Of a stretch of 64,000 nucleotides of DNA, positions 7,538 through 27,946 are shown in pieces. The translations under genes and the position numbers were made by a program. Position 1 is the stretch's first letter; every line of letters begins with the position of its first letter. Source of the stretch: a virus; the IMG/VR virus record IMGVR_UViG_3300009594_000003, positions 21,652-85,651 of that record, one strand, 5' to 3'. A model generated the notes under the pieces. The model did no database searches. It worked only from the letters and a program-made list of their open reading frames with translations, and was not told where the DNA came from.

Positions 7538-7558
7538 CGGAATCACCCAAGATGGACG

Positions 7559-8512: not shown

Positions 8513-8734
8513 ATGAAGACATTCATGCAATGGGCTGAGACAAACAAGCACGACCTGAGTTTTCTAGTTACAGATGCCCCAGAGGGCAAGGATACTGTGG
8601 ACGAGAAGACCAAGCGTGCCGGTATCAGCGATAACTATCCTGATGCCTACGTGAAGAAGCAATATCCTCACAAGTATTTCAACCCGATTTCCGCCACGGC
8701 TGACAGCCAGCTAGGTGGGAAGATTGGCAGCTAA
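8513..8734 (+). CDS. 73-residue protein with capsid-targeting-like N-terminus
   Basis: The first residues, MKTFMQWAETNKHD, are strikingly like the capsid-targeting sequence of T4 internal proteins (MKTYQEF...). The rest is a small hydrophilic polypeptide with DAYVKKQYPHKYFNP. A GAGG site precedes the start and a strong terminator follows the stop, so it is a single-gene unit. A small packaged head protein is the most economical guess. Confidence 0.6.
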   Translation: MKTFMQWAETNKHDLSFLVTDAPEGKDTVDEKTKRAGISDNYPDAYVKKQYPHKYFNPISATADSQLGGKIGS

Positions 8735-8766
8735 ACAAAAAGCCCGGCGTAAGCCGGGCTTTTTGT
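8735..8766. terminator. Bidirectional terminator
   Basis: Stem ACAAAAAGCCCGGC with loop GTAA and perfect complement ending in TTTTTGT. It separates two convergent genes and serves both. Confidence 0.92.
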
Positions 8767-9402: not shown

Positions 9403-9497
9403 AGTATTTTTCTCCAAACTACTATAGATAGAGTGTAGCTAATTAGATCGGCTGGCACAATATCTAAGTAACAGCCGAAGAAAAAAGAAAGGTCAGT

Positions 9498-9977
9498 ATG
9501 GGCAAAATCAACCGTCTCAGTAAGAGAGTAACCAAGTACGAAGCTCTCGCACAACAGCGTGAGCGACTGGAGTATAAGACGAAAGGCGAAGGACTCTATC
9601 TATATAGAAACAAGTCCAAGGATGCAACATTAGAGTTGCCAAAGCCAACCACATCAGGCCAACGTGTCGTTCAACCGCTGGGAGAGTGGCAAGGCGACAA
9701 CTACTACATGCAGTTGGTGAGGACCAATCTAGCAACTCTCGTCCGTGAAATTATATCTCCAACAGAGGAAAAAGCCATGAACGAAAAGAAACTCATTCTA
9801 GATCAACCCGACCGTGTGACCGTCAAAGGCACTGTCGAGCAGGTTTTGGTCGAGCCAAACGACGCAGAAGCAACCCCGCCGACGTCAACCAGAAGGACCA
9901 AGAGAGAGCATTCCAAGAAGAAAGAAACGCTCTTGAACGAGGCCCCGGTAGATGGGGTTGAGATCGTTTTGAGCTAA
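9498..9977 (+). CDS. Unknown basic protein
   Basis: 159 residues, hydrophilic, with a basic N-terminus (MGKINRLSKRVTKYEALAQQ) and a Lys/Arg/Glu-rich C-terminal third. No motif is recognised. An AAAGG site precedes the ATG. A perfect terminator follows, so this gene ends the module before the promoter at 10.07 kb. Confidence 0.5.
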   Translation: MGKINRLSKRVTKYEALAQQRERLEYKTKGEGLYLYRNKSKDATLELPKPTTSGQRVVQPLGEWQGDNYYMQLVRTNLATLVREIISPTEEKAMNEKKLILDQPDRVTVKGTVEQVLVEPNDAEATPPTSTRRTKREHSKKKETLLNEAPVDGVEIVLS

Positions 9978-10000
9978 CCCGAAAAAGACAATTTTATTCT

Positions 10001-10030
10001 AGAGCCGTCGTGCTTCCGCACGACGGCTCT
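10001..10030 (+). terminator. Hairpin terminator
   Basis: Stem AGAGCCGTCGTGC, loop TTCC, perfect complement, then TTCT. It ends the transcript of the preceding gene. Confidence 0.88.
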
Positions 10031-10068
10031 TTCTACATCAGGCTTCTAGATTCCCCGAATTAGGCCAC

Positions 10069-10096
10069 TTGACATCGGCTTCCCGGTGACTATAAT
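10069..10096 (+). promoter_or_regulatory. Consensus sigma70-type promoter
   Basis: TTGACA, a 16-base spacer ending GTGAC, and TATAAT: both hexamers are perfect. It lies directly after a terminator and 46 bases before the AAA+ gene. Confidence 0.85.
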
Positions 10097-10142
10097 GCTC
10101 GTAGCGGTTTGTGGCAACAGTGTTCTCTGAGGAGACCAAGAA

Positions 10143-11381
10143 ATGGCGAACAGCATTCGTAGGCAAGTGATGCTGAAGCGAAAGTGCAGTCAGAAGACCA
10201 ACGACAAGACCACGAAGAAACAGGTTGAGTACATCGCCAAGCGTTCCACCACCGGCTCTCGTGGCAAAGGCTGGGAGTACAAGGTCAAGAAAGCCGCTGC
10301 CCCAGTGAAGGTCGGCGAGTCGTGGATTTTCACGTATCGCATCGAGTACCAGAAGTCGGGCGGGCGAGGCGAGGCGTGGAAGGGTCAGTGGGCCGAAATC
10401 CTGAAGTACGTCATCGAGGTCGGCAACGGCACCAAGTACGGCAAATTTCCGTGGCGGGTCACGCACCCCGATGAGAAGGAGATCAAGGCAATTCTGGCCG
10501 AGGAAGGCTACCTGGAGGAGTTGGATCATGTCTTCATGCCGGACAACGAGCGTCCGACCGTGCATGACGACAAGTTACTGCCGATGGACGAGGACCACCA
10601 GAAGAAGTACGCCGACATCAGCTTCGACCGCAAGGACCACTTCACGCACATCTACGACCGTGATGCTCAGATCGAGCGGGTCATCTCGGCGATCAAGGCG
10701 GCTCAGGCTTCCTTGATGGAGAACCGCTTCCACTGCGTTCTCTACGGTCCTCCTGGCTGCGGAAAAACCGAAATTCTGCTCGCCGTCTGTACGATGCTCG
10801 GTCGTGAGGGCGAAGCCTACATCAAGCTAGATGCGACTAGCACCACCAAGGCCGGTATCGAGTCGCATCTACTCGACCCCAACACACTCATTCCTCCGGT
10901 TATCATGATCGAGGAAATCGAGAAGACGAACGAGATGGACCTGCGGTGGATGCTGGGCGTTCTAGACAAGCGTGGTGAGATTCGCAAGCTGAACTACCGC
11001 ATCAACGCACGCCGCAACGTGCCGATGCTTTGCCTCGCCACGGTGAACAACATGGAGTTATTCAAGAACGTGCTGGCAGGTGCCCTTGCCAGCCGGTTCC
11101 CAAATAAGCTATACTGTCCTCGCCCTGGTCGGGAGATCATGAAGCGTATCCTCGAACGTGAGGTTGCCAAGTCCAAGGGCAAGACTGAGTGGATCGAACC
11201 CGCTCTCCAGTTTGCCGTGGACGACCTGGGTATCAACGACCCACGAGAGGTCACGCCAATCTGTCTCTGCGGTGGAGACGATCTCCTGAAGAAGACGTAC
11301 CAGCGGTGGTACATTCACACGATGGAGCCGGGCGACCAGGAGAAGGCCAAGGAAAAGGCTCCGCACTGGTTCAAGGACTAG
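10143..11381 (+). CDS. AAA+ ATPase
   Basis: 412 residues. The N-terminal half is a family-specific region of unknown role. The AAA+ core has Walker A GPPGCGKT near residue 204, Walker B VIMIEEIE near 258, sensor 1 LATVNN near 302 and a probable arginine finger in ASRFPNK near 320. The layout is closest to RuvB/clamp-loader or MoxR-like ATPases that remodel protein or DNA complexes. GGAG 10 bases upstream supports the ATG. It is first in the unit driven by the promoter at 10069, so it is likely expressed early. The specific substrate is unknown. Confidence 0.75.
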   Translation: MANSIRRQVMLKRKCSQKTNDKTTKKQVEYIAKRSTTGSRGKGWEYKVKKAAAPVKVGESWIFTYRIEYQKSGGRGEAWKGQWAEILKYVIEVGNGTKYGKFPWRVTHPDEKEIKAILAEEGYLEELDHVFMPDNERPTVHDDKLLPMDEDHQKKYADISFDRKDHFTHIYDRDAQIERVISAIKAAQASLMENRFHCVLYGPPGCGKTEILLAVCTMLGREGEAYIKLDATSTTKAGIESHLLDPNTLIPPVIMIEEIEKTNEMDLRWMLGVLDKRGEIRKLNYRINARRNVPMLCLATVNNMELFKNVLAGALASRFPNKLYCPRPGREIMKRILEREVAKSKGKTEWIEPALQFAVDDLGINDPREVTPICLCGGDDLLKKTYQRWYIHTMEPGDQEKAKEKAPHWFKD

Positions 11382-11411
11382 CGATCTAGCTGGTCCTAGA
11401 AAGGACTAGCA

Positions 11412-11834
11412 ATGTTCGCACTACTCAAAAATGGGCGTCTTGTGAACCTCACGGCTTGCAGCACAGAGGTCACGAACGCCCTGGCCGATGGAACGGCTGA
11501 CACAGTGAAGAAGGTCGAAACGCTTGACGAAGTGGCGGTACTGGTGAACAACCGGTGCAGCCACTTCGCCGTTGACCAAGACACGTCGGAAGACGCAGAC
11601 GGCGTTCTCTCCGCTCTCGGACAATTCTTCGACAACATGCGAACCTCCATCGAGGATGGAGCCTCAAGTCTATATGAACAGGCCCGGTCTCTGTCCGGCA
11701 AGGACATCCTTACCAGGGCCGAGGCTGCATTCAAACAAGCGAGGGACGCAGGTGCCCAGAAGCTCGATGAGCTTCGGAAAGTCGTACACAAGGCCACCGA
11801 AAAAGTCGTACACAAGGCCACCGAAAAGAAGTAA
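11412..11834 (+). CDS. Unknown 140-residue protein with duplicated C-terminal octapeptide
   Basis: No family recognised. The C-terminus is helical and charged and ends with a tandem KVVHKATE unit repeated twice; the DNA shows a 24-base direct repeat at 11778-11825. AAGGA precedes the ATG. It follows the AAA+ gene by 30 bases and probably shares its transcript. A decayed HNH gene lies immediately downstream, so the repeat could mark an insertion edge, but this is only suggestive. Confidence 0.5.
   Translation: MFALLKNGRLVNLTACSTEVTNALADGTADTVKKVETLDEVAVLVNNRCSHFAVDQDTSEDADGVLSALGQFFDNMRTSIEDGASSLYEQARSLSGKDILTRAEAAFKQARDAGAQKLDELRKVVHKATEKVVHKATEKK
11778..11825 (+). repeat. 24-base tandem repeat, two copies
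   Basis: Two identical 24-base units beginning AAAGTCGTACACAAGG encode the repeated octapeptide KVVHKATE at the end of the preceding gene. Confidence 0.9.
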
Positions 11835-11850
11835 CGGGACAGTTGAAAGA

Positions 11851-12097
11851 AAATCGAAGACGCATGGAGCCAGTTCCAGAACCAAAACGGCAGATGTGCT
11901 ATTAGTGGGGTCGAAATCAAGTTGGTCAGAAACTATAGCACTGCTCCTAGAAGGAAGCACCAAACAGCATCACTAGACAGGATTGACAGCACTAAAGGCT
12001 ATGTCAAAGAAATGTGGCCTGGGTGCATAAAGCGGTACAACAAATAAAGTGGAACTTCACGCTCTCAGAACTCGTAGACTGGTGTGGTTTGATTTAG
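11851..12097 (+). pseudogene. HNH homing endonuclease remnant
   Basis: One frame reads AWSQFQNQNGRCAISGVEI, then SLDRIDSTKGYV. After a frameshift near 12010 another frame reads NVAWVHKAVQQIKWNFTLSE and ends LVDWCGLI. Together these match the C-terminal half of the HNH-type gene at 63.3-63.9 kb (CALSGIDLSF, SLDRIDSTEGYV, NVQWIHKDLN). The N-terminal half is missing, so this is a truncated, frameshifted copy. Confidence 0.75.
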
Positions 12098-13529: not shown

Positions 13530-13558
13530 TTGACACCTGAATTCAGGATGTCTAGAAT
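13530..13558 (+). promoter_or_regulatory. Sigma70-like promoter for coaD
   Basis: TTGACA, 17-base spacer, TAGAAT, starting 3 bases after the terminator. Its -10 box overlaps the first possible ATG of coaD, which raises doubt about that start. Confidence 0.65.
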
Positions 13559-14210
13559 TGCGACGGAGGTTGGGCGAGGCGTTTATGCCGGGTCTTTCGA
13601 CCCTCCGACTCTGGGACACATATACGTCATCGACCAGACCGCACGGCTCTTTGACGAGTTGATCGTTGCCGTTGGCGACAACCCTGAAAAAAAGTTTTCT
13701 GAACGCAGCAGGATAGATATGCTGAAAGAGAGCATCCTGCTTTTGCAGCAACGTCTTCAAGGCGACCATCCCATCGAGAACATCCGAGTCGATCATTTCC
13801 GTAATCGGTTTCTCATTGACTACGCCAAAGAACAAAACGCAAAGTATATCATTCGAGGAATCCGCAACTCCCAGGATTTCGAGTTTGAGAAAGCAATGCG
13901 GTATCTCAATGCCGACCTCACGCCAGGGATAACAACCCTGTTCATTGTCCCTCCACGAGAGTTGGCTGAAATCAGTTCCAGTGTTGTGAAGGGGGTGTGT
14001 GGACCGGAGGGCTGGCAGCGTGTTGTCCAGTCTATGGTCCCACCCCCGGTCTGCTCAGCAAGTGCACCGTCAAAGACGTGGATGAGGAAGGCTAGCTCAC
14101 TTGTGAGCCGAAGCCCGATAACGAAGTTCTCGCCGTTCAGATCGGCGAGGACCACGCCGGGCCGGACGGTTTCACCCTCATCGGTCAGTGGGGTGATGAA
14201 CGAATCGTAG
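13548..14210 (+). CDS. coaD: Phosphopantetheine adenylyltransferase (CoaD)
   Basis: Residues from about 10 on match CoaD: GVYAGSFDPPTLGH is the nucleotidyltransferase TxGH site, YIIRGIRNSQDFEFE matches the bacterial (L/I)RGLR..xDFE signature, and EISSSVVKG is the ISSS motif. The enzyme makes dephospho-CoA from 4'-phosphopantetheine and ATP. Homology ends around residue 165 (near 14050); the following 60 residues look like out-of-frame reading through a decayed gene. The ATG at 13548 lies within the promoter, so a downstream non-standard start is possible. Given the NAD genes nearby, an NMN/NaMN-adenylating role cannot be excluded. Confidence 0.75.
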   Translation: MSRIATEVGRGVYAGSFDPPTLGHIYVIDQTARLFDELIVAVGDNPEKKFSERSRIDMLKESILLLQQRLQGDHPIENIRVDHFRNRFLIDYAKEQNAKYIIRGIRNSQDFEFEKAMRYLNADLTPGITTLFIVPPRELAEISSSVVKGVCGPEGWQRVVQSMVPPPVCSASAPSKTWMRKASSLVSRSPITKFSPFRSARTTPGRTVSPSSVSGVMNES

Positions 14211-15368: not shown

Positions 15369-16733
15369 TTCTCTAATTAACCGTCCTTCTTGGACGGTTT
15401 CTTCTTTTCTGGCTATACAACTCCCGCATTAGGCACTTCAAGCCATACCTCTCCCTCTCCGCACATCTTTTTCTCGGTCAAATAATGTAAGCAGTGTCGT
15501 TTACTAGAAGAAGGAAAACCGGAGAATATGACAACATGCGTTAAAATAATCAGGAAATCCAATGTTTCCGACCCGCTAGAACTGGTTAATCAAAACATGG
15601 TGATAGAAGATGGGTTGGAACATGGTAGGAGAAATAACCTTGAACGGCGTGCCTCGCTGGGATATGCTCGATGAGGCAAATAACCTGATTTCCAAATTAA
15701 AAACTACCAAGCCAAAATATGTTATTTACCGTGACCATGATAGAATAGGCTTCAAGAATCCCGCCGAAATCGGTTTCTTCATTACCTCCCTGAAACAACT
15801 GGATATGAAGATTATCACCGCCAACGACGAGCAGGTGGTCGATATGACCAACCTCGCTTCGACCATGCGGACGGTGCAAAACCAGTTAGCTTCATCAGCC
15901 GAGATTGAGAAGAAGGGATATAGGACACAAATTGCTCGCCGGAAGACTATCGAGAAGAAGTCTAGTCCTGGCAAGATGTGTGTCTATGACTATGACTGGA
16001 TAGTATATAACCGTGAAGGCACTTTCAAATATAAGGTCATCTACGAAGGTTACAAAAAATGCGAAGGACGGCACTGGACTGACCCACCGAAGAATACCAG
16101 AAGTCATGCCAATGCGGTGGAAAGAATATCCAGACGGCAAACGAGAAGCATATCACGACCAGTGGGTTCAAAATAGTCACAACTGGATATTGCTCACGTC
16201 CGTTCCCATGATGGAAAAGGGCGACCGGAAGACTGAGATTGTTAATGTTGAGCGTGCCAAAGTTGTGAAAGATATATTTGACTTGGCTGACACTCCTAGT
16301 TACAAAACTCCTCACGAAATTGCCTGCATCTTCAACAATAAGGGCATCAAGAGCATGAGTAGGAAGTGGGATGCCAAGACAATAAAGTGCATCTTGTCAA
16401 ACCCCATATACAAAGGGTATCCAGTCGATAATCAAACTTCAAAAGCAAAGACCGCTCGGTTGAATACTAATATAGTTACCGTGCCACCGACCAAGGAAGA
16501 ACGAGCAGCAATACGCATTGTAGATATTGCACAATGGGACCGAGTGAATAAATATCTGCGAGATAATCAGACAGGATATAAACATTTTCGCCGTGCTAAT
16601 CTCGGTGACTTTTGGGCAAAGTGCTTTTTGTTCTGCGGTAACTGCCAAGATATTTTTTACGTCGCCAATAGCACTAAATGGAAACCTTCCAAGAACTATC
16701 GCTGCGAGAAGTGTGGTGCCATAAAATCCCAAT
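15369..16733 (+). mobile_element. Serine-recombinase insertion element (about 1.37 kb)
   Basis: The element separates codons of a uracil-DNA glycosylase gene: the left side ends CCCTCGC and the right side begins GCTAACG. Joining CGC to GCT restores [16 protein letters not shown]. Inside are a terminator and one decayed large serine recombinase, whose stop codon is completed by the right flank (TGC TAA). Boundaries are inferred from the restored protein and could be off by a few bases. Confidence 0.65.
15379..15409 (+). terminator. Hairpin terminator at the element's left edge
   Basis: Stem AACCGTCC, loop TTCTT, stem GGACGGTT, then TCTTCTTTT. It would block transcription entering the element from the glycosylase side. 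Confidence 0.8.
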
Positions 16734-16738
16734 GCTAA
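15528..16738 (+). pseudogene. Large serine recombinase, two frameshifts
   Basis: Three consecutive frames make one protein of about 400 residues. Frame A, from the ATG at 15528 behind GGAG, reads MTTCVKIIRKSNVSDPLELV. Frame B reads YVIYRDHDRIGFKNPAEIGF of the resolvase catalytic domain. Frame C (from about 16090) reads HEIACIFNNKGIKSM and IKCILSNPIYKGYP of the recombinase domain and ends in a zinc ribbon ([17 protein letters not shown]). Each junction is explained by one extra base in a short run (GGG near 15612, AA near 16092). It is therefore inactive as read. Confidence 0.75.
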
Positions 16739-17613: not shown

Positions 17614-17641
17614 TTTACAACAGGTCGAGCGTGACTACAAT
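17614..17641 (+). promoter_or_regulatory. Promoter TTTACA-N16-TACAAT upstream of pncA
   Basis: The same two hexamers with the same 16-base spacer occur upstream of pncB and of the gene at 58434. It opens the NAD/triad block, 45 bases before the pncA ATG. Confidence 0.7.
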
Positions 17642-17685
17642 ACGGGTGTGGTCAGGACAACTCAACAAATAGGAGAGAATGAACC

Positions 17686-18561
17686 ATGCGAAAGGTCCAT
17701 CTGGTCATCATCGACCCGCAGAATAGTTTTTGCAAAGTCGTTCCCCAAACCGACCAGCAGAAACTCCACGACGGCGAACTGTGCGTCACCGGGGCCTGGG
17801 AGGATATGGAACGGGTCGGCGACATGATCCGACGCCTGGGCAAGAAGCTGACGCAGATTCACATCACCCTCGATTCCCACCACCAGTGGCACATCGCTCA
17901 CCCCTGCTGGTTCAAAGACAGCAAGGGTCAGCCTCCGGCCCCCTTCACCACCATGCGAGTAGAAAACGGGGTGATCATCGGTGCCCAATTCGATGCCAAG
18001 GGCGGTCTCCATGACGTGGGCGAGTATACGCCGACTCTCTTCGGCGAAACCTACAAGTGGACCTACAAGTATCTCACCGAACTGGCTTTGGGCGGTCGCT
18101 ACCCGCACGTCATCTGGCCGTATCACTGTTTAATCGGCACGCCCGGTCACAACATCGTCGCCCCGCTGGAAGACGCCATCCTCGAATGGGAGCGTGTCGC
18201 TCGGCAGACCTGCGACAAGATCACCAAGGGGTCATGTCGTTTCGTGGAACACTTCTCGGCAGTTCGTGCCGAAGTAACCTACGACCAAGACCCCAACACC
18301 CAACTCAACACCGACTTCGTACAAATGCTCGGCCACGAGGCCGACGAGGTTCTGATCTCCGGTGAGGCCCTATCTCACTGTGTCGCCAACACTTTCCGAG
18401 ACGTTGCCAACGAACTCGGCGACGACTTCGTGAAGAAGTGTGTGCTGCTCGAAGACGCCTCCAGCAACGTCGGCAACTTCGAGAGCTACGGCAAGAAATT
18501 CGTCACCGAGATGAAGGCTCGTGGAATGCGAGTCTCTACCACCAAGAAATACCTCAAGTAA
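17686..18561 (+). CDS. pncA: Nicotinamidase, isochorismatase-like fold
   Basis: 291 residues. IIDPQNSFC carries the catalytic Asp10; TLDSHHQWHIAHP near residue 61 matches the metal-binding Asp/His set of nicotinamidases; WPYHCLIGTPGHNI near 144 is the conserved WPxHC..G..G block; GEALSHCVANT near 226 carries the nucleophilic Cys. The enzyme deamidates nicotinamide to nicotinate, the first step of deamidating NAD salvage, in the cytoplasm. It is longer than E. coli PncA (213) because of an insert near residues 75-140. GGAGAG precedes the ATG. pncB, nadE and a broken nadD lie downstream. Confidence 0.85.
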   Translation: MRKVHLVIIDPQNSFCKVVPQTDQQKLHDGELCVTGAWEDMERVGDMIRRLGKKLTQIHITLDSHHQWHIAHPCWFKDSKGQPPAPFTTMRVENGVIIGAQFDAKGGLHDVGEYTPTLFGETYKWTYKYLTELALGGRYPHVIWPYHCLIGTPGHNIVAPLEDAILEWERVARQTCDKITKGSCRFVEHFSAVRAEVTYDQDPNTQLNTDFVQMLGHEADEVLISGEALSHCVANTFRDVANELGDDFVKKCVLLEDASSNVGNFESYGKKFVTEMKARGMRVSTTKKYLK

Positions 18562-18615
18562 CCGGACTGACTATTCGCCCCATAGTCTTTCCCATATACC
18601 AGAAAGGAACTAGTC

Positions 18616-19347
18616 ATGTCTGATGAACAGGCCCTTGAACAGCACAAGATCGGGCACTTCGGTTTCAGTGCCGTCCACATTGGCAATCTCGGTGCGGCGG
18701 AATACACGCTCGTCACCATCGTCTGCGATCGCAGCGGCAGTACCAACGGCTTCCAAGCCGATATGGAAGCTGCTCTGAAGGAAGTCATCAAGGCGTGTCA
18801 GTTCTCGCCACGAGCCAACAACCTTCTGATCCGTGTCCTAACGTTCGAGGACTCGCACAGCGAATTCCACGGCTTCAAGCTGCTGGAGCAGATCAACCTC
18901 GATGACTACAACGGGGCATTGGCACCGGACGGCTACACCGCCTGTTACGACGCCATGCTCGACGGCATCGAGGCAACCGACAACTTCGGCCAGCAGTTGG
19001 ATGCCCAGGATTTCAACGTCAACGCTATCCTGTTCTTCATTACAGATGGCGATGACAACCGTTCCACGAACGGTACGACACAAATCAAGCAGGCACTCAG
19101 TAAGGCGGTGAAATCCGAGGCCCTGGAGAGCATCGTCACCATCCTGATCGGCGTGAACGTCATCGATCCGCACTTCAAGGAGCGGCTGGAGCAGGCTCAC
19201 CAGCAGTGTGGTTTCACACAATTTATCGCTTTGGGCGATGCGAACAAGAAGACACTGGCAAAACTCGCTCAGTTCGTCAGCCAGTCGATCTCCTCGCAGT
19301 CTCAGGCGTTGGGAACAGGCGGTCCTTCCAAGAGCATCAACTTCTGA
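18616..19347 (+). CDS. von Willebrand factor A domain protein, TerY/YegL-like
   Basis: 243 residues, essentially one vWA domain. The metal-ion-dependent adhesion site is DRSGS at residues 38-42, with a conserved Thr in GYTACYDA and Asp in FFITDGDDN. TerY/YegL-type vWA proteins act with a PP2C phosphatase and a kinase; both partners are encoded 3-6 kb downstream. It probably binds a phosphorylated or metal-bridged partner in that circuit. GAAAGGA supports the start. A strong terminator follows, so its level is set separately from pncB. Confidence 0.8.
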   Translation: MSDEQALEQHKIGHFGFSAVHIGNLGAAEYTLVTIVCDRSGSTNGFQADMEAALKEVIKACQFSPRANNLLIRVLTFEDSHSEFHGFKLLEQINLDDYNGALAPDGYTACYDAMLDGIEATDNFGQQLDAQDFNVNAILFFITDGDDNRSTNGTTQIKQALSKAVKSEALESIVTILIGVNVIDPHFKERLEQAHQQCGFTQFIALGDANKKTLAKLAQFVSQSISSQSQALGTGGPSKSINF

Positions 19348-19395
19348 ACTCTGTCCGTTTCGGAGTTGATTCTGACCACGCTGTTCGGAGCAAGA

Positions 19396-19423
19396 CGCCC
19401 GGCCCGACATGTCGGGCCGGGCG
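19396..19423 (+). terminator. Hairpin terminator after the vWA gene
   Basis: Perfect 28-base palindrome built on CGCCCGGCCCGACA, followed by TTCTTGTATTT. Confidence 0.88.
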
Positions 19424-19431
19424 TTCTTGTA

Positions 19432-19459
19432 TTTACAGGCCAAAAACCAACACTACAAT
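19432..19459 (+). promoter_or_regulatory. Promoter TTTACA-N16-TACAAT upstream of pncB
   Basis: Identical hexamers and spacing to the pncA promoter. It lies right after the terminator and 21 bases before the pncB ATG. Confidence 0.7.
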
Positions 19460-19480
19460 GGTCGTGAAAGAAGGACCGCA

Positions 19481-20665
19481 ATGCTCAAATCGATTCTAGA
19501 TACCGACCTGTATAAGCTGACGATGCAGCAGGCGGTATTGGAAAAATATCCTGATGCCCACGCCGTCTATACTTTCACGAACCGAAGGAAGTCCGACAAG
19601 TTCCCTGATAAGTTCGAGGACTACTTGGTTTCCGGCCTCATGGCCTTAACTAAGGTGGCGTTGTCGCCCGGTGAGGCAACATGGCTCGCCACGGCTTGCC
19701 CCTGGCTCAAGTCCTCCTACATCGAGTACCTCCGCAACTACCGTTTCAACTCTTCGGAACTGTTTTTGAAAGTCAGGAATGACGATCTCACTATCACCAT
19801 CAACGGACCTTGGCACCGAACTATTCTGTGGGAAGTGCCGATGATGGCGATCATCAGTGAACTCTATTTTCAGCATGTAGTCACGGATTGGACGCACGAA
19901 GGGCAAGAAGAGAAGATCGCAAAGAAGGGTGAACTTTTTAAGGCAGAGCAGATACGTTGGTCGGACTTCGGTACTCGTCGCCGTCGCTCCTACAAATCAC
20001 AAGATCGTGTCGTCAACATCTTCAAAGGCAACCCATTCTTCAGCGGCACAAGCAACGTCCATCTAGCCCACAAGTACACTGTCCGGCCAATCGGAACTAT
20101 GGCCCACGAATGGATTATGGGCCACGCCGCTCTCTGCGGTCTGCGGTACGCCAACCGCTACGCCCTGCGTGCGTGGAACGATGTGTATCACGGCAACCTG
20201 GGGATTGCTCTTACCGACACCTACGGCACACCAGCTTTCTACAAGGACTTCGATGGCGTGTTAGCTCGTCTTTATGACGGCGTTCGGCATGACAGCGGTA
20301 GTCCCTTCGAGTTTGCCGATGCTGCGGTCGCTCATTACAAATCACTCAACATCAACCCAGCCCACAAGACCATCGTGTTCAGTGATAGTCTGGACCCTCC
20401 ATTGGCAGTTCAGCTTGCTCAGCGGTGCCGTCAACTAGGAATCAACGCTGTTTTTGGTATTGGCACGAACCTCACGAATGATTATGATAGTGGCAAGCCG
20501 CTGAATATAGTCATCAAACTGCGTTCACTGAACGGTGTCGAGGTCGTTAAACTGAGTGACGATCTCAACAAGGCGACCGGCGATAATGACGCCGTGCGTG
20601 TCGCCAAGTGGACGTTCTGCAATACACCGCTCGATAAGCCAGGAGTTCAGAGCTACAAGAGGTAA
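19481..20665 (+). CDS. pncB: Nicotinate phosphoribosyltransferase
   Basis: 394 residues, close to E. coli PncB (400). Collinear matches include LDTDLYKLTMQQAV at the N-terminus, GPWHRTILWEVPMMAIISE, WSDFGTRRRRS, FSGTSNVHLAHKY, GTMAHEW with the catalytic His region, LGIALTDTYGT, RHDSGSPFEF and FGIGTNLTND with PLNIVIKL. It makes nicotinate mononucleotide from nicotinate, PRPP and ATP. The match is to nicotinate, not nicotinamide, phosphoribosyltransferase, which fits the upstream nicotinamidase. AAGGA before the ATG at 19481 fixes the start. Five bases separate it from nadE. Confidence 0.9.
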   Translation: MLKSILDTDLYKLTMQQAVLEKYPDAHAVYTFTNRRKSDKFPDKFEDYLVSGLMALTKVALSPGEATWLATACPWLKSSYIEYLRNYRFNSSELFLKVRNDDLTITINGPWHRTILWEVPMMAIISELYFQHVVTDWTHEGQEEKIAKKGELFKAEQIRWSDFGTRRRRSYKSQDRVVNIFKGNPFFSGTSNVHLAHKYTVRPIGTMAHEWIMGHAALCGLRYANRYALRAWNDVYHGNLGIALTDTYGTPAFYKDFDGVLARLYDGVRHDSGSPFEFADAAVAHYKSLNINPAHKTIVFSDSLDPPLAVQLAQRCRQLGINAVFGIGTNLTNDYDSGKPLNIVIKLRSLNGVEVVKLSDDLNKATGDNDAVRVAKWTFCNTPLDKPGVQSYKR

Positions 20666-20670
20666 CTGAT

Positions 20671-22680
20671 ATGAACGACTTTGGCCTCGCACGCATCACC
20701 GTTGTCAGCCCGGAAGTCAAGGTTGGCAACCCAACATTCAATGCTTTCCAGGTTGCCGATGCGGTCAAGAAAAACCCTGGATCGCAAATTTATCTTTTCC
20801 CTGAGTTGGGGATTACCGGCTATACATGTGCCGATCTCTTCAACTCGGCTACACTTCTCGAACGGACTGTGGATAGTCTAGTCTGGCTCAGCGAGCAGAC
20901 GTATATGAATGACGCCTTCGTTGTGGTCGGTTTACCTGTCAAAGCAGACGGCAGCCTCTACAACTGTGCCGCCGTTATTCACGCCGGGAAAATCCAGGGT
21001 CTCATCCCCAAGCAACATCTCCCGACGTACAAAGAATTCTATGAACGTCGTTGGTTTGCCCCAGCTACCGGCATGGAATCCAGGGCCATCAAGTTCGGGA
21101 ATCTCTACATTCCTTTTGGTATCGATCTACTTTTCGAGGATGAAAACCACCCCAACATCCTCATTGGAATCGAGATTTGCGAGGATGTGTGGACTGTCAT
21201 CCCGCCCAGCAGCTATCAAGCCTTAGCCGGGGCAACGATCCTCCTCAACCTCTCTGCCAGCAATGAAACAGTCGGCAAGGCCTCATATCGCCGTGATCTG
21301 GTTCTTAACCAATCTGGCCGCTGCATCGCTGCATATGCTTATGCCAGTTCTGGCTGGACAGAATCTACCACCGATCTAGTTTTTGGTGGTCACTGCATGA
21401 TTGCCGAGAACGGTTTGATGCTTACGGAAACCCCCAAGTTTGAGCGGTCGGCAATGATTACTGCGGATGTTGATGTCGAAAAGCTGGTGCTGGAACGTGA
21501 ACGCACTTCGAGCTTTGCTGACAACAAACGTCGGCAGGCTGTTCCGTTCCGCATCTTCCGAATAGCTCTGGAACAGCGGGGCGACGATAGGCTTATGCGG
21601 AGCGTGAATCCTCACCCCTTCGTTCCGCATAACACCAAAGAACTAGACGAACGCTGCAAGGAGATTTTTGGCATCCAGACTCGTGGCCTTGCAAAGCGAA
21701 TCGAAACAGCCAATGTCAACCGCATGGTAATTGGTGTCTCCGGTGGTTTAGACTCTACGCTCGCTCTCTTGGTTGCAGCCAAAGCGTGTGATCTAGTTGG
21801 CAAGCCGCACAGTACCATCCTGGGGATTACCATGCCGGGTTTCGGCACAACAAGCCGGACCAAGAACAACGCCATCAAGTTGATGGAAGCATTGGGCGTC
21901 GAGCAGAAAACCATCGACATTCGCCCGGCTACCCTTCATGCCCTGTGTGATATACAACACAGGCCATTCGGGATTAAACTTGAAGCTCACTACCCGTATC
22001 CAGGCAGTGCGGTTGAAGCGTTGCAGGCACAACTTGCCAACCTGCCACACGACAATCGCCACGATCTGGTGTTCGAGAACGTCCAGGCTAGACTCAGGAC
22101 GTTCCTGTTGATGTCGCATGGTTTCGTCGTCGGCACAGGCGATCTATCGGAGCTTGCCCTGGGCTGGTGTACGTACAACGGCGATCACATGTCGATGTAC
22201 AATCCCAACTGTAGCATCCCAAAAACACTGGTGAAGTTCCTTGTGGAATATGTTGCAGAAAACGAAGTGAGAAACTTTGTTAACAGCGACAACACTCTGG
22301 TGGACATCTGCAAGACAACAATTTCTCCCGAACTGTTGCCAGCGGGTGCGGATGGCAACATTCTACAGTCCACCGAGGATGTTGTCGGCCCCTACGAACT
22401 GATTGACTTCTTCATGTTCTGTATGATCCGGTGCGGATACGGGCCGAAGAAGACTTTGTACCTCGCCGAACACGCTGAGTTCAATACAAAGTACACACGA
22501 GACCAACTGAAAAATTGGTTGAAGGCTTTCTATTTCCGGTTCTTCTCCTCGCAATTCAAGCGGTCTTGTGTGCCTGACGGCCCGAAGGTCGGGTCGGTTT
22601 CTCTGTCGCCGAGAGGCGACTGGCGTATGCCCAGCGATGCTGATGTATCAATTTGGGTCAGCGAGGTTGACGAAGCATGA
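20671..22680 (+). CDS. nadE: Glutamine-dependent NAD+ synthetase
   Basis: 669 residues, the usual length of two-domain NadE. The N-terminal amidase has the Glu-Lys-Cys triad: Glu in FPELGITGY (about residue 45), Lys in IPKQHLPTYKEF (about 112), Cys in GIEICEDVW (about 169). The C-terminal synthetase has the ATP loop VSGGLDST near residue 357 and the ELALGWCTYNGDHM block near 500. It converts nicotinate adenine dinucleotide to NAD+, using glutamine as amide donor. The stop overlaps the PP2C start (ATGA). It is the last step of the salvage route encoded here and is intact. Confidence 0.92.
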   Translation: MNDFGLARITVVSPEVKVGNPTFNAFQVADAVKKNPGSQIYLFPELGITGYTCADLFNSATLLERTVDSLVWLSEQTYMNDAFVVVGLPVKADGSLYNCAAVIHAGKIQGLIPKQHLPTYKEFYERRWFAPATGMESRAIKFGNLYIPFGIDLLFEDENHPNILIGIEICEDVWTVIPPSSYQALAGATILLNLSASNETVGKASYRRDLVLNQSGRCIAAYAYASSGWTESTTDLVFGGHCMIAENGLMLTETPKFERSAMITADVDVEKLVLERERTSSFADNKRRQAVPFRIFRIALEQRGDDRLMRSVNPHPFVPHNTKELDERCKEIFGIQTRGLAKRIETANVNRMVIGVSGGLDSTLALLVAAKACDLVGKPHSTILGITMPGFGTTSRTKNNAIKLMEALGVEQKTIDIRPATLHALCDIQHRPFGIKLEAHYPYPGSAVEALQAQLANLPHDNRHDLVFENVQARLRTFLLMSHGFVVGTGDLSELALGWCTYNGDHMSMYNPNCSIPKTLVKFLVEYVAENEVRNFVNSDNTLVDICKTTISPELLPAGADGNILQSTEDVVGPYELIDFFMFCMIRCGYGPKKTLYLAEHAEFNTKYTRDQLKNWLKAFYFRFFSSQFKRSCVPDGPKVGSVSLSPRGDWRMPSDADVSIWVSEVDEA

Positions 22681-23528
22681 ACACCGACTCATTCTATGCC
22701 AAAGGTTCTACCCACCGTGAGAACCAGGACTACGCCACTCACGGCGAGAGAGAGGGGCAACCATTCGCTATCATTTCAGATGGATGTTCGTCTGCTCCAC
22801 GCACTGATTTCGGGGCACGGATTCTGGTGCAAGCCGCCGTGCAATATCTCGGCGTGGCTGGATACAATGATGATTCATTTAGCCATAGTACGATCAATAC
22901 GGCCCGTATTTGGTCACATGCCCTGGGCCTGCCTGATGATTGCCTCTGTGCTACGCTGCTCATGGCTATAGTTGCAAACGTAGATGTAGGAATGCCGCAC
23001 GTTGACCAGCATATGTACAAGGTCTTCATCAGTGGCGATGGCTTTGTGGTTGCTCGGCACAAGGACCGCATGGAAATCCACGAATATAAATTTGCTCGTG
23101 GTGCCCCATGCTACCTTCGCTACAGCCTGGACCCCAAGATGTCCAAGGACTATTGGGCAAAGTTCGGCGATGAGGTCACACATCGCATCTACATGATCGA
23201 CAACAACGGAAAATCCGACTACCAAAAGGAGACGAAGAAATATCCTGCCGCTCCGTTCTTCTTTAAGTTGGAGTTTCCCGTCTCCGACTACCTTTGGGTC
23301 GCAGTGGTCAGCGACGGCGGCGACTCTTTCTTGGAAACGGTGGACCACGGCACCGGCCTAGAACCAACCGATGTTCCGGCCAGTACCGTACTATTTGAGC
23401 TATTCAACTTCAAGAATTATCAAGGCGAGTTCGTCCAGCAACGGTGCAGTAAGGCTTTCAAGGAGTTCGGCAAGAAACGCTGGCAGAACGCCGACGACAT
23501 TGCTGTTGGGGTGATTGCGAGGGACTGA
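22677..23528 (+). CDS. PP2C-type Ser/Thr phosphatase, YegK-like
   Basis: 283 residues with PP2C metal motifs in order: GSTHRENQDY near residue 10, AIISDGCSSAPRTDFGAR near 30 with the metal Asp, VSDGGDSF near 211 and NADDIAVGVIA near the C-terminus. It should remove phosphate from Ser/Thr targets, most simply those of the kinase encoded at 24955. It overlaps nadE by ATGA and the nadD reading frame follows at once, so it belongs to one polycistronic unit. The vWA gene upstream completes the triad. Confidence 0.82.
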   Translation: MNTDSFYAKGSTHRENQDYATHGEREGQPFAIISDGCSSAPRTDFGARILVQAAVQYLGVAGYNDDSFSHSTINTARIWSHALGLPDDCLCATLLMAIVANVDVGMPHVDQHMYKVFISGDGFVVARHKDRMEIHEYKFARGAPCYLRYSLDPKMSKDYWAKFGDEVTHRIYMIDNNGKSDYQKETKKYPAAPFFFKLEFPVSDYLWVAVVSDGGDSFLETVDHGTGLEPTDVPASTVLFELFNFKNYQGEFVQQRCSKAFKEFGKKRWQNADDIAVGVIARD

Positions 23529-23529
23529 T

Positions 23530-24147
23530 ATAAGAATCGGACTTCTAGGCGAGGCCTTTGACCCAATTACCTGTGCCCACATGGACATGGCTAGAGTTGG
23601 ACTAGAAGTGTTCGATGAAGTCTAGCTCATGCCATGTAATACACATCCTTGGGACAAAGAAATGGCCCACGGCTCAGACCGTCTTCATATGATTGAGTTG
23701 GCGACTCAACACACCCCCAAAATAAAACCGTGCCCCTACGAACTAGAAATGGCACCAAGTTCGTACACCTACGATGTGGTGTGGAGCATGAGACATAAGG
23801 TGCGGTTCATGCCGATTGAATTCAGCATCATCGTTGGCATGGACAATGCCAACAAAATCAAGGAGTGGCATCGCTGGCAAGAACTGATCGAAATGATCCC
23901 TTTCCTTGTAGTAAAGAGAAGGGGCATCGAACAACAAACTGATTAGTTCCTGAAAGCTCCTCATATGTTCAAGGACATCGGGACGGTGACGGGCACACTG
24001 CAAACCAACTGCCTAGCCGTACCAATTAGTTCAACACTGGTACGGCGAACCATCAGAGAGGGCGGCGATGCCCGCCCATTTCTGCACTTGGACGTGTGGA
24101 ACTACATCGACAAGAAGGGACTCTACAAGAAAGGTCCAGATGAATAA
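23530..24147 (+). pseudogene. nadD: Nicotinate-nucleotide adenylyltransferase with two in-frame TAG codons
   Basis: A single frame of about 206 codons matches NadD: GLLGEAFDPITCAHMDMA is the nucleotide-binding site, DEV-TAG-LMPCNTHPWDKEM, RLHMIELA, SSYTYDVV, IVGMDNANKIKEWHRWQEL, VVKRRG, and PISSTLVRRTIREG is the ISSTxxR motif; it ends YIDKKGLYKKG. TAG at 23623-23625 replaces the conserved Trp of DE(V/I)WLMP. A second TAG lies at 23944-23946 (TD-TAG-FLKAP). There is no frameshift. No standard start codon is seen; ATA or ATC near 23530 would be needed. It overlaps its neighbours like a normal operon gene. It is either newly inactivated or read by amber suppression. Confidence 0.8.
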
Positions 24148-24958
24148 ATGTTGCGTCTACATGGTGAATCAACATCCGCTGTACATGAACATGGCTTGTA
24201 ACAGCATAGCCATGTTAAGGAAACATTCGGCCATTCCAGTTCGTGTACTGCTGATTACCGATTTCGCACGCACCACCTTCTCTAATACACGGAACTACCC
24301 CGGCTTGGAACTTGATGTGTCCGATGATGCTGTGAAACGGATGTCGGACAGGTTGGTTGTTAAGTGCGAGGAAATGGGAGCGGAAGTAAAGGTACTGAGT
24401 CCACACGCCGCCGAAACAGACTACATTCATTGCAACCAATCCTACATGGCTACGGAATGCCCAGAGGAACTGGTCATGAAAATGGATGCCGACACCTTCC
24501 TCTTCGGCGACATCGAGCCTGTTTTCAACGCATACGATGGATACGATGTAGTCGCCCTGGAAGCGGACTGGTTCAAGAAAGAAAAAGAATGGAAGCCTGA
24601 ATGGTTCGGGAATCAGACGCCACTCTCTACAGCGGTGATTCTGTTCCGAAACGAAACGGCCAAACGCTGGGGAGAATTCTTGCCAGGGATGTGTCGGGCG
24701 TATGCCGAGGGCGACTCTGACGCCGCTATCTGGGCACGAAACAGAAAAATCTTGTATTTGCGGGACGAACTTTCCTTAACACCATTCGTCATCTGCAATA
24801 CACTGAAATGGAGGCTGTTCAGGGAAGAACACTGTTGCCAGATCAGTGCCCCGGAGTTTTGGAAAAACATCATTGCACACGCCTTCGGCTACAATTGGCT
24901 GAAGGCTTATCAGATGCTCACAGGGAGCAAAGACTTGCCGTTGAGGGCCGCTCAATGA
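24140..24958 (+). CDS. GT-A type glycosyltransferase-like protein
   Basis: 272 residues. MKMDADTFLFGDIEPVF near residue 117 carries a DxD metal/nucleotide-sugar motif typical of GT-A (family 8-like) enzymes. A Rossmann-like N-terminus (CCVYMVNQHPLYMNMACNSI) and a C-terminal acceptor region follow. It probably transfers a sugar to an unknown acceptor in the cytoplasm. The ATG at 24140, preceded by AAGG, overlaps the nadD end by 8 bases; the stop overlaps the kinase start (ATGA). Confidence 0.7.
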   Translation: MNKCCVYMVNQHPLYMNMACNSIAMLRKHSAIPVRVLLITDFARTTFSNTRNYPGLELDVSDDAVKRMSDRLVVKCEEMGAEVKVLSPHAAETDYIHCNQSYMATECPEELVMKMDADTFLFGDIEPVFNAYDGYDVVALEADWFKKEKEWKPEWFGNQTPLSTAVILFRNETAKRWGEFLPGMCRAYAEGDSDAAIWARNRKILYLRDELSLTPFVICNTLKWRLFREEHCCQISAPEFWKNIIAHAFGYNWLKAYQMLTGSKDLPLRAAQ

Positions 24959-26694
24959 AGCTCTACTTGAAGGGAAGTGGCACCGAAATCAACCTGGATC
25001 AGCGGGACTTCATTGCCAAAGGCGGCGAGGGCAGCATCTTCGGCAAGGGGGCGATTGCCTACAAAGTCTATGACGACCCGCACAAGATGATCCCCGTTGC
25101 CAAGATCGGCGAACTAGCCGTCCTCGATCATCCGAACATCATCAAGCCAGACGTTGTGTTGCTAGACGGCAAGAACAAGCCCATCGGCTACACAATGCGA
25201 TTGCTGAACAACACTCACGTCCTCGTCTCTTTGTTTACCAAAGCCTTCCGCTTGCGTAATGGTATTGACGACGCCATGATGCTCCATCTGGTCAGGGAAC
25301 TTCAAAAACTCGTGGCGTTCGTTCACAGCAAACGTATCCTCATCGTTGACCTGAACGAGATGAACTTCCTCACGGATGCCGGGTTCAAGGACATCTACGG
25401 CATAGATGTCAATTCATACCAAACGCCCGGCTTTCCAGCGACAGCAATTATGGATACGATTCGTGACCGCCACATGACGGGCCACAATTTCAACCAGAAC
25501 ACCGACTGGTTTAGCTGGGCCGTTGTTGCCTTTCAAATGCTGATTGGCATTCATCCGTATAAGGGATCGCATCCCGACTTTGAGACGATGCCCAAGGACG
25601 AGCGACTGAATGCTCGTATGACTAGAAACGTCTCGGTCTTTCACAAGAATGCTACATGGCCCAAGGTGTGTCAGCCATTCGATGTCATCCCGCCAACGCT
25701 CAAGGGCTGGTTCGTTGACGTGTTTGAGCGTGGACATCGTGGCAACCCGCCTCCCAATTACGCCGCCGTGGTTGTGGCGGTCGCTACTGCGATTCAAGAT
25801 ATTGTCGGCACCGACCTGTTCGACATTCAGGAACTACAAACCTTCGCCGAGGAAATCGTGCGGGTATGCTCTACGGCCAACACCACGGTAGTTTTCACCA
25901 AAGATAATTTAGTCATTGGCAAGAAGCTCTACCCGCTGCCGTCGCCAACGTGCAAGATCGCTTTTGCCCCGAAGACCGAGAACCCCATCGCCTTCTGGAT
26001 TGACAACGGCCTCAAGGCGTTAGATGTAGTTTCCAACAAGCCGTTGTCCGTCCCAGCAACCGGCACCGCCCTCCTAGAATGCGACGGTCGTGTGTATGTC
26101 CAGAATGGGACATACCTCATGGAGTTTATGATCGGCGAGTTCCCGACCGGCGTGAAGATTCTGCCAAAACAGGTCGGCAAAGTTATGGATGTGCTGGGTG
26201 CCACGCAAATCTACGACGGCGTGATCTTGCAAAACGTCCTGGGAACTTTCTACGCCACGATCTTCCCGGTGAGCGGCCAGAGCCATCAGGTCAAGCTCAC
26301 CGAGTTGTCCAAGTACCAGATCATCGACGTCAAGTACGAGAATGGTGTCCTGGTGGTAGTTGGCACAAAGCTAGTCTCGAAGCGGTCAATGGCAACCAAG
26401 AGCAAGTACGACCGTTTCGTGTTCCGCATGTCGCCGGACTACAAGAATTACGACTTCTGGACCGCCGAGGACGTAACCTATACCGGAATCAACTTCACCG
26501 TCGCCGATCACGGCGTAGCGGTACTGATGAACGAGGAGGAAAAACTGGAAGCCTTCTCGGAGACGAAAGGATCATCGACTACGCCCAAGAGATTCGATGA
26601 TGATGCCCTTGACACCGACATGAAGTTGTGTCACCGTGGCAGCAAGATTCTGTTCGCCAAGGGGAAGAAACTGTATTCCATTTCCATGAAGTAG
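24955..26694 (+). CDS. Protein kinase with beta-rich C-terminal region, YegI-like
   Basis: 579 residues. The N-terminal half is a divergent Ser/Thr kinase: glycine loop KGGEGSIF (residues 22-29), YKVYDD with the ATP-binding Lys, HPNI, catalytic loop VDLNEMNFL in place of HRDxxxxN, and DVNSYQT in place of DFG. The DLNxxN/DVxS pattern is that of YegI-type kinases paired with TerY-like vWA and PP2C partners. Residues about 300-579 are beta-rich repeats, perhaps a propeller-like sensor. It overlaps the glycosyltransferase by ATGA. Targets are unknown. Confidence 0.8.
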   Translation: MKLYLKGSGTEINLDQRDFIAKGGEGSIFGKGAIAYKVYDDPHKMIPVAKIGELAVLDHPNIIKPDVVLLDGKNKPIGYTMRLLNNTHVLVSLFTKAFRLRNGIDDAMMLHLVRELQKLVAFVHSKRILIVDLNEMNFLTDAGFKDIYGIDVNSYQTPGFPATAIMDTIRDRHMTGHNFNQNTDWFSWAVVAFQMLIGIHPYKGSHPDFETMPKDERLNARMTRNVSVFHKNATWPKVCQPFDVIPPTLKGWFVDVFERGHRGNPPPNYAAVVVAVATAIQDIVGTDLFDIQELQTFAEEIVRVCSTANTTVVFTKDNLVIGKKLYPLPSPTCKIAFAPKTENPIAFWIDNGLKALDVVSNKPLSVPATGTALLECDGRVYVQNGTYLMEFMIGEFPTGVKILPKQVGKVMDVLGATQIYDGVILQNVLGTFYATIFPVSGQSHQVKLTELSKYQIIDVKYENGVLVVVGTKLVSKRSMATKSKYDRFVFRMSPDYKNYDFWTAEDVTYTGINFTVADHGVAVLMNEEEKLEAFSETKGSSTTPKRFDDDALDTDMKLCHRGSKILFAKGKKLYSISMK

Positions 26695-26703
26695 GAGACT
26701 CAC

Positions 26704-27190
26704 ATGCACCCATCAGAGTACATCGAATTTCTCAAAACCGGCAATGGTGCCAAGGTTGACGGTCTGTGTGGCCGGATTATCCGGGGCAAGACGCCGTAGT
26801 GCTTCTCTCGCCTCTCCGATGATCCGAACCGCAAGGTAGTCATGCTCACCGATGCGGAGGACTTGCAATCGTTGCTGGGAAAGAATAGCTATCAGATGCT
26901 CATTACCATCGGTCATCATCCCGACCACATCAACCAGTGTCTCAGCGAAGGCAAGAGCTACAAGATCGTGGTGTTCCCGGCCAGCAGTGCCCTCGAAGGC
27001 ACTTGGGATAGTCGTGAAGCTCGGCTCCCAGGTTTACCCCGACGTGGCCCCAGAATTCGGACGGCTCCCATTCTCGGTCATCGAACAACTGGCCGGTTAT
27101 CACTTCAAGGATGTCGATGATCCGACACATCCGAAGTTCATGTCGCACGAGCGGTTCCAAGCCCTGATCGTTCAGCCTTCACACCCCTAA
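26704..27190 (+). pseudogene. Unknown gene with in-frame TAG and frameshift
   Basis: Follows the kinase by 9 bases behind AGGAG. It reads MHPSEYIEFLKTGNGAKVDG, then IIRGKTP, a TAG at 26797-26799, CFSRLSDDPNRKVVMLTDAE and IVVFPASSALEGTWD. A frameshift near 27011 leads to VVKLGSQVYPDVAPEFGRL and FQALIVQPSHP, ending TAA at 27190. Both parts read as protein. Family not recognised; a fourth partner of the kinase circuit is possible. Confidence 0.6.
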
Positions 27191-27213
27191 CGCCCCGGCC
27201 AAGGGCCGGGGCG
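27191..27213 (+). terminator. Hairpin terminator at the end of the NAD/triad block
   Basis: Stem CGCCCCGGCC, loop AAG, stem GGCCGGGGCG, then TTTCCGTTT. Confidence 0.88.
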
Positions 27214-27259: not shown

Positions 27260-27946
27260 ATGATCGATTTCGGCTTCAAGGAGTACCTTCAACTACAAGA
27301 GATGGCGGCGAGAAAAAGCCTCGCTAGAAGTCTTGAGAAGTGGATGGACAACATCGACAAGCCGGTTGCTGTTTTAACTGCGTTCCGAAGCGAACATGAC
27401 CTGGAAACGAATCGAAAGAGAAACGAGGAACTGGTCAAGGACTTGACGGCTGCCGGTTTGAGCCATTACCCTGTAACAGGACAAGGCCAGGAGATCAAGC
27501 GATGGGCATTCCTTTTCCGAGTAATCGAACCAACGAAAGAAGAGTCCTTTGTGGTCCAGCCACGAGGCGAAATGAGCGATACGGTATTCGTTAGCACTAT
27601 CCAGGGGTTGATGAACACCTACAACCAGGATTTCGTGGCAATGAAATTACCAAGCAGTCCTGATGCTTTTCTACTTGGGAGAAATGGGAATAGAGAACCA
27701 TTGGGTCGAAGTGCCCATCCAAGAAGAGAAGAAAACCCGTTTTACTCAGAATTGCTCAAAGGAGTAAGAACGCCGCCCGAACAAATGAGCGGATGGGAAA
27801 GAACGGGAGAAAGAAGTCTGGTACGTCGATTCATCAACTGGCTGAGGGGCAGGTCTCATATGAACCACCCAGTCCCAGCCGATGAAAGAGGCGGCAGAAG
27901 ATTCGTAGTGGGCGATGCACCCAAACACCCACAGGGAAATGCGTAA
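27260..27946 (+). CDS. Unknown protein with capsid-targeting-like N-terminus
   Basis: 228 residues. It begins MIDFGFKEYLQLQEM, matching the recurrent N-terminal motif with LQE as a possible cleavage site. The middle part (AVLTAFRSEHDLETNRKRNE, ELVKDLTAAGLSHYPVTGQG) looks like small phage DUF3293-type domains, from memory. The C-terminus is basic and disordered. No ribosome site is visible; ATAAATA ends 4 bases before the ATG. A 1-base overlap (TAATG) couples it to the next gene. Confidence 0.55.
   Translation: MIDFGFKEYLQLQEMAARKSLARSLEKWMDNIDKPVAVLTAFRSEHDLETNRKRNEELVKDLTAAGLSHYPVTGQGQEIKRWAFLFRVIEPTKEESFVVQPRGEMSDTVFVSTIQGLMNTYNQDFVAMKLPSSPDAFLLGRNGNREPLGRSAHPRREENPFYSELLKGVRTPPEQMSGWERTGERSLVRRFINWLRGRSHMNHPVPADERGGRRFVVGDAPKHPQGNA

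Follow-up and report, generated by a model that had tools for sequence, protein, structure and literature searches.

Gene organisation of the locus

We analysed a stretch of 64,000 nucleotides (the window) that comprises positions 21652-85651 (G000:C1) of the 85,651-base virus record IMGVR_UViG_3300009594_000003. On its + strand the genes pncA, vWA, pncB, nadE, PP2C, nadD, a putative glycosyltransferase gene and a kinase gene follow one another. Four of them form what we term the tetrad: a pncA-like nicotinamidase gene (17686-18561), a gene for a YegL/TerY-like vWA protein (18616-19347), a PP2C phosphatase gene (22677-23528) and a gene for a YegI-like protein kinase (24955-26694). The tetrad usually lies near other genes for the synthesis of nicotinamide adenine dinucleotide (NAD+), a pattern suggestive of an undescribed switch by which protein phosphorylation is coupled to NAD supply. 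In the window these partners are pncB (19481-20665, nicotinate phosphoribosyltransferase), nadE (20671-22680, glutamine-dependent NAD+ synthase) and a nadD frame (~23515-24147) that is probably a pseudogene. Gaps of 54 bp, 133 bp and 5 bp separate pncA from vWA, vWA from pncB and pncB from nadE, respectively; nadE overlaps PP2C by 4 bp, nadD overlaps the glycosyltransferase gene by 8 bp, and the latter overlaps the kinase gene by 4 bp.

A preliminary description of this DNA had pointed to deamidating salvage genes interleaved with a YegL/YegK/YegI-like triad. This arrangement is real, and all genes lie where they had been placed. Another uncultivated viral genome (UViG 3300017388_000002, 122,654 bases) is identical to the window in the stretches compared, 1-12000 and 9481-36691, and because of this identity it does not clearly provide independent confirmation of single bases.

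Conservation of the four-gene core

Initial relatives were obtained by comparing the window proteins, by tblastn, with loci that a pncB search had detected. A profile built from six kinases (A1) then yielded 79 viral loci; the contigs it detected, about 80, are in many cases 200-618 kb long. With hidden Markov models for the individual genes, pncA, vWA, PP2C and the kinase gene were seen to share a strand and a span of about 10 kb at 73 of 81 kinase-anchored viral loci; the exact order pncA-vWA-PP2C-kinase is present at 68 of these 73. The tetrad is still present in 66 of 71 loci when identical kinases are collapsed. The reciprocal search from pncA (A4) recovered the full triad at 67 and vWA at 75 of 79 loci; the distance between pncA and vWA has a median of 68 nt. 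At a threshold of 70% identity the kinases form about 100 clusters.

The preliminary description had allowed that absence of the arrangement in all relatives would make the genes chance neighbours, but relatives that carry it do exist. On the 157,792-base contig of locus L008 the order pncA-vWA-pncB-nadE-PP2C-nadD-kinase is the same as in the window, with 43-53% identity for pncA, vWA, pncB, nadE and the kinase and about 30% for PP2C and nadD. Loci L067/L069 keep the window order from pncA to the kinase with one extra gene, and L012 and L040 show the order pncA-vWA-PP2C-pncB-(short nadE)-kinase. What has to be revised is the unit, which had been taken to be a NAD operon plus a triad. The closest relatives, L055/L068 (kinase 71-72%, pncA 79-81% identical), have the tetrad and no pncB, nadE or nadD on their contigs. 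Since the four genes recur in searches from the kinase as well as from pncA, and the closest relatives lack the other three, the unit is the tetrad, with the nicotinamidase as its fixed fourth member and pncB, nadE and nadD as frequent optional partners. Comparison of L055 with L068 gave ratios of non-synonymous to synonymous substitution (dN/dS) of about 0.05 for pncA and 0.11 for vWA, values that indicate purifying selection on both sequences; synonymous sites of the other genes were saturated.

L055 and L009 come from one metagenome, as do L068 and L006, and in each pair one contig has the tetrad and the other pncB-nadE-nadD. Each pair may represent pieces of one phage genome.

The nicotinamidase and the salvage enzymes

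The PncA-like protein of the window scores 26.3 bits with the Pfam Isochorismatase model, slightly under the cut-off of 27, and far below the cut-off of the NCBIfam PncA model. Proteins of this kind (264-291 residues) are longer than most solved nicotinamidases. A profile search of the PDB matched yeast Pnc1 (E 1.3e-18), and the alignment pairs D10, D63, H65, H147, K181 and C232 with Pnc1 residues D8, D51, H53, H94, K122 and C167, whose roles in an Asp-Lys-Cys catalytic triad and an Asp-His-His metal site are established. Both the triad (D10, K181, C232) and the metal site (D63, H65, H147) are thus present, and all six residues are invariant in 44 diverse PncA-like proteins. The AlphaFold2 model has a mean predicted local distance difference test score (pLDDT) of 96.2, and its top eleven fold neighbours in the PDB are all nicotinamidases. 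By profile and fold the protein is a predicted nicotinamidase, and nicotinamide would be its substrate in vivo.

This bears on an alternative in which the substrate of the PncA-like protein is some other amide, or the protein produces a signal molecule used by the triad, and the nearby NAD genes are secondary. The borderline Pfam score, the low NCBIfam score and the unusual length of the proteins would fit this idea. However, the invariant catalytic and metal residues, the nicotinamidase fold neighbours and the significant linkage to PncB and NadE (see below) all speak against it, and we regard it as distinctly improbable.

The phosphoribosyltransferase is of the PncB type (NCBIfam PRK05321, 450 bits, cut-off 379), and NadE matches the glutamine-dependent family PRK02628 with 839 bits (cut-off 473). 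The nadD frame matches TIGR00482 (5.6e-35) when read through. As the preliminary description had noted, it is interrupted by amber codons: in-frame TAG codons are found at 23623, where five of five relatives have Trp, and at 23944, where four of five do. In addition, the frame has no ATG start and reads ATA where ATG is expected. The three changes each resemble G to A, and there is no frameshift. Intact nadD frames without internal stop are present at L006, L008, L009, L056 and L067. Because of the two TAG codons and the lack of a clear ATG, nadD of this phage is probably inactive and a recent pseudogene, possibly reflecting recent decay, although the frame may be read through in this phage. 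Recoding of TAG was considered and rejected: TAG is the ordinary stop codon of most genes of this phage, and internal TAG codons are limited to nadD and a few damaged frames. The deamidating set PncA-PncB-NadD-NadE is therefore not wholly intact here, and conversion of nicotinic acid mononucleotide to nicotinic acid adenine dinucleotide would be left to the NadD of the host.

The vWA protein, the phosphatase and the kinase

Each of the three triad proteins was compared with a single E. coli sequence by hhalign. The vWA protein has weak Pfam vWA matches and aligns with YegL at 91% probability; residues D38, S42, T108 and D144 of its metal ion-dependent adhesion site are intact and invariant in 38 relatives. 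The phosphatase matches Pfam PP2C_2 with 36.7 bits (cut-off 24), and its metal-site aspartates are likewise intact, being invariant in 34 relatives. Its alignment with PphC is weak (55% probability, E 1e-4). The kinase has a weak Pfam Pkinase match and aligns with YegI at 98.4% over the kinase domain only. Residues D132, N134 and D151 are kept in all 48 sequences, K37 and N137 in at least 90% of them.

In the AlphaFold2 model of the kinase (pLDDT 91.2) a kinase domain (1-270) is connected by a flexible linker (271-280) to an all-beta C-terminal domain (~283-579) with about 29 beta strands and no Pfam match. Foldseek searches with this model gave matches to the kinase domain only in the PDB, and in BFVD one full-length phage kinase (Myoviridae sp. 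ctNQV2, 5.9e-34) together with some propeller proteins. The modelled C-terminal domain is probably a beta-propeller.

Linkage to NAD+ metabolism and NrtR regulators

Among 44 tetrad contigs, matches above the cut-off occur for PF04095 (nicotinate phosphoribosyltransferase, NAPRTase) on 28 and for PF02540 (NAD synthase) on 32; NadV, and not PncB, probably accounts for some of the weaker PF04095 matches. NadE lies within 10 kb of the kinase gene on 18 contigs (3.3 expected, P 5e-11) and NAPRTase on 13 (3.0 expected, P 1e-6), where expectations and P values assume uniform placement and independent contigs. As a control we used 31 contigs, many of them short, that share the protein encoded at 61730-63340 of the window. 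PF04095 was present in 4 of them and the tetrad kinase in none. The control protein itself (537 residues, - strand, phrog_28378) has counterparts of 64-69% identity on about 30 other viral contigs, which lack the tetrad kinase. Clustering of neighbouring genes around the tetrad revealed Nudix genes at 31 loci, Thg1 at 11, NAD-dependent DNA ligase at 10, a divergent NAD synthase at 9 and NADAR at 8; calcineurin-like phosphoesterases were seen at 9 loci by inspection.

The Nudix gene upstream of pncA in three Acidobacteriota (L146, L154, L136) is of the NrtR type, with a NUDIX domain and an NrtR winged helix. NrtR regulators are known to respond to ADP-ribose, and the proteins of L146 and L154 match the NCBIfam model 'ADPR responsive transcriptional repressor' at about 1e-50, under its strict bit-score cut-off. 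The winged-helix domain was also detected at L158, L159, L160, L153 and L150 and at the phage loci L059, L117, L123 and L105; altogether, each of the 13 longer Nudix neighbours analysed has it, whether of cellular or phage origin, and it is absent from the shorter Nudix protein of L091.

In the three Acidobacteriota the palindrome TTAGCGT-N7-ACGCTAA occurs in two copies 23 bp apart before nrtR and in one copy before pncA. Across their whole genomes, copies with 0-1 mismatch are confined to the tetrad locus. Palindromes of the type TTAG...CTAA are also present in the divergent nrtR-pncA region of L158-L160 and of a Variovorax element, and a search at the phage loci L059, L105, L117 and L123 yielded nothing convincing. 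As judged from sequence, L146, L154 and L136 are putative NrtR-controlled loci with predicted operators, and L158-L160 and Variovorax likely are as well; NrtR would bind to these palindromes. The proximity of NrtR in several lineages strengthens the earlier proposal that the triad may track NAD status.

Occurrence in viruses, cells and a plasmid

From the sequences available, the tetrad is a feature of many giant bacterial viruses, mostly huge uncultured phages, and of a few bacteria and archaea. In a quick kinase tree viral and cellular sequences interleave, with 11 label changes, at least 8 of them forced by supported branches. The cellular matches are contigs of metagenome-assembled genomes (MAGs), some of which are possibly phage. 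Inspection of the sequence showed genes of housekeeping type at L146 and L154; the contig of L143 is 1.36 Mb long. The kinase was found in 1 of 297 Acidobacteriota genomes, the already known carrier, and is thus rare in cells. The pncA gene was detected in 4 of 50,697 INPHARED records, of which three are huge uncultured phages and the fourth is a short faecal contig. There is no isolate among them, and this would account for the tetrad having escaped surveys of isolates.

The isolate Variovorax sp. SRS16 has the tetrad genes on its 801-kb plasmid 2 in two pieces about 20 kb apart (L294, L295). One piece comprises PP2C-kinase-pncB followed by NADAR and NAD synthase, the other pncA-vWA, NAD kinase, a divergent NrtR gene and a macro-domain gene, so that tetrad genes, PncB, NadE, NAD kinase, NADAR, macro and NrtR are encoded within about 45 kb. 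An AlkB gene is also present. Being cultured, Variovorax sp. SRS16 is the most tractable system.

Relation to known systems

The triad of TerY-P reportedly goes back to Anantharaman 2012 and Gao 2020. TerY-P consists of a vWA protein, a PP2C and a kinase with a C-terminal zinc ribbon, or with an OB-fold in stand-alone defence modules (PMC11090510), and is active against T7-like phages (PMC7699616). It shares with the tetrad a vWA protein of the TerY/YegL kind, a PP2C and a Ser/Thr-type kinase encoded as an adjoining unit, and it is linked to conflict biology. At 73 of 81 kinase loci these three genes are encoded together, with pncA in addition. In contrast to TerY-P, the tetrad has a constant nicotinamidase as fourth gene, its partners are NAD genes and NrtR instead of nucleases and helicases, and it is found mostly in huge phages. 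By AlphaFold2 and Pfam the window kinase has neither zinc ribbon nor OB-fold at its C-terminus but a long all-beta domain. PADLOC gave weak kinase matches and named no part as TerY-P, and NCBIfam gave no useful match for naming the triad. The preliminary description had called the triad TerY-P-like. The vWA/PP2C/kinase composition bears this out, but strict membership in TerY-P is unsupported because of the all-beta C-terminus and the PADLOC result.

The YegL-PphC-YegI genes of E. coli constitute the same three-gene set, and by hhalign their products are homologous to the triad proteins, PphC only weakly so. However, no nicotinamidase or NAD genes are found beside yegL in E. coli K-12, and the C-terminus of YegI differs from that of the tetrad kinase. 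Phage-encoded restoration of NAD+ from nicotinamide, as predicted for the window, is also the function of the NARP1/NARP2 pathways and KVP40-type NadV/NadM salvage; NARP1 uses Adps and Namat and the KVP40 type NadV with NadM or NadR, whereas the window combines the deamidating PncA-PncB-NadE route with a phosphorylation module. The window PncA has the fold, catalytic triad and metal ligands of Pnc1/PncA nicotinamidases but belongs to a divergent, longer subfamily that is encoded with a kinase/phosphatase triad. The Nudix and winged-helix domains of the NrtR proteins, and the palindromes before their own gene and a neighbouring NAD gene, are those of known NrtR regulators; here, however, the regulator adjoins the tetrad, and the best-scoring sites are confined to the tetrad locus in the genomes tested.

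In a survey of viral NAD-ADP-ribose systems the main NAD+ enzymes listed for phages are NadV, NadM and NadR, and nicotinamidase/PncA is absent from its text (PMC9503650); a jumbo-phage survey mentions neither PP2C nor nicotinamidase (PMC7824862). The tetrad is mentioned neither in these surveys (Iyer 2021 and 2022) nor in a 2026 jumbo-phage review. In agreement with the preliminary description, we found no account of it in the literature searched, which left most subscription papers out of reach; novelty here means not found, and not proved absent.

A putative phosphorylation switch on NAD+ salvage

Considering the constant nicotinamidase and the linkage to NAD genes and NrtR, we regard it as very likely that the tetrad belongs to NAD metabolism. 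We also think it fairly probable that the tetrad acts as a phosphorylation switch on NAD+ salvage and represents a NAD-dedicated relative of the YegL-PphC-YegI and TerY-P triads. In our view the odds are about even that the kinase responds to NAD breakdown by controlling salvage. More tentatively, nicotinamidase, vWA protein, PP2C and sensor kinase might form a NAD+-responsive signalling unit that detects NAD+ breakdown and controls resynthesis, enabling phages to outlast NADase immunity; the benefit to the phage would then lie in counter-defence.

In such a scheme, NAD+ breakdown by NADase defences of the host or by phage enzymes would release nicotinamide and ADP-ribose. PncA would convert nicotinamide to nicotinic acid, the entry to the deamidating route, which would proceed through PncB, the NadD of the host in place of the broken phage copy, and NadE. 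The kinase, opposed by the PP2C and scaffolded by the vWA protein, would sense NAD status or NAD breakdown via its all-beta C-terminal domain and toggle salvage enzymes or a host target on and off. In several cellular relatives ADP-ribose would probably also derepress expression through the NrtR-type repressor.

Several observations weigh against this interpretation. The similarity between the PP2C and PphC is weak, and the virus record to which the window belongs gave no NrtR match. Large phages commonly carry NAD genes, as the 4 of 31 control contigs with PF04095 show, so that co-occurrence by itself is a modest argument, and since some loci are related, the true linkage P values are larger than those calculated. 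About one third of the tetrad contigs show no PncB or NadE, most of these being fragments. Finally, Thiotrichaceae-type MAGs (L145, L147, L148, L150) have a kinase homologue without PP2C, vWA or pncA nearby; at L150 two Nudix genes come after it, of which the first encodes an NrtR winged helix.

Alternatively, the tetrad could be a TerY-P-like defence that large phages or elements carry against competing phages, in which the nicotinamidase supplies a signalling or effector step and NAD genes shield the carrier against side effects. The triad architecture resembles that of TerY-P, which acts against T7-like phages (PMC7699616, PMC11090510), and a patchy occurrence with exchange between phages and cells would be in line with defence. 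Nevertheless, the tetrad has no constant partner among effector genes, whether for nucleases, membrane proteins or others, PADLOC did not recognise TerY-P, the constant nicotinamidase and the NrtR link point to NAD housekeeping, and the carriers are mainly viruses. We therefore consider this explanation unlikely.

Phage kinases can modify host proteins, the T7 kinase being an example, and early auxiliary genes are often clustered. The kinase and phosphatase could accordingly serve host takeover by modifying proteins of host transcription, translation or metabolism, with the NAD genes as co-expressed early auxiliary genes. The tetrad is, however, also present in cellular MAGs, several times beside NrtR with operator-like palindromes, where takeover makes no sense, and the constant nicotinamidase partner would be left unexplained. 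This makes host takeover quite improbable. Large phages gather many auxiliary genes, NAD genes commonly among them, but a chance neighbourhood has a negligible probability and is rejected by the kinase- and pncA-anchored locus counts, by order and strand kept across the kinase clusters and in reciprocal searches, by the NAD-gene linkage statistics and by purifying selection on pncA and vWA.

Bacteria rely on NAD+ depletion as a major means of defence, to which phages are known to respond with metabolic enzymes or sponges. If the proposed phosphorylation switch exists, reversible phosphorylation added to nicotinamide salvage would constitute a regulatory answer to NAD+ depletion. We know of no signal described for TerY-P/YegI-type triads; NAD+ breakdown products would then be a concrete candidate.

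Further features of the window

The putative glycosyltransferase gene (24140-24958, + strand) lies outside the conserved core and has no counterpart at the corresponding place in L008. Its label derives from a DxD-like motif; the product has no Pfam, PHROG or significant PDB match, and its identity was not confirmed. Upstream of the tetrad, a CoaD-like nucleotidyltransferase (CTP_transf_like) is encoded at 13530-14210, in a frame that seems to pass into another near the C-terminus. By eye, an apparent serine-recombinase/zinc-ribbon gene at 15610-16738 is split into two frames by a frameshift, the first part having no Pfam match. Directly downstream of the kinase gene, the frame at 26705-27190 contains an internal TAG and an apparent frameshift near the gene end. 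Shortly after the cluster, positions 27260-27946 show a match to the S-adenosylmethionine lyase family, which is of a counter-restriction type used by phages.

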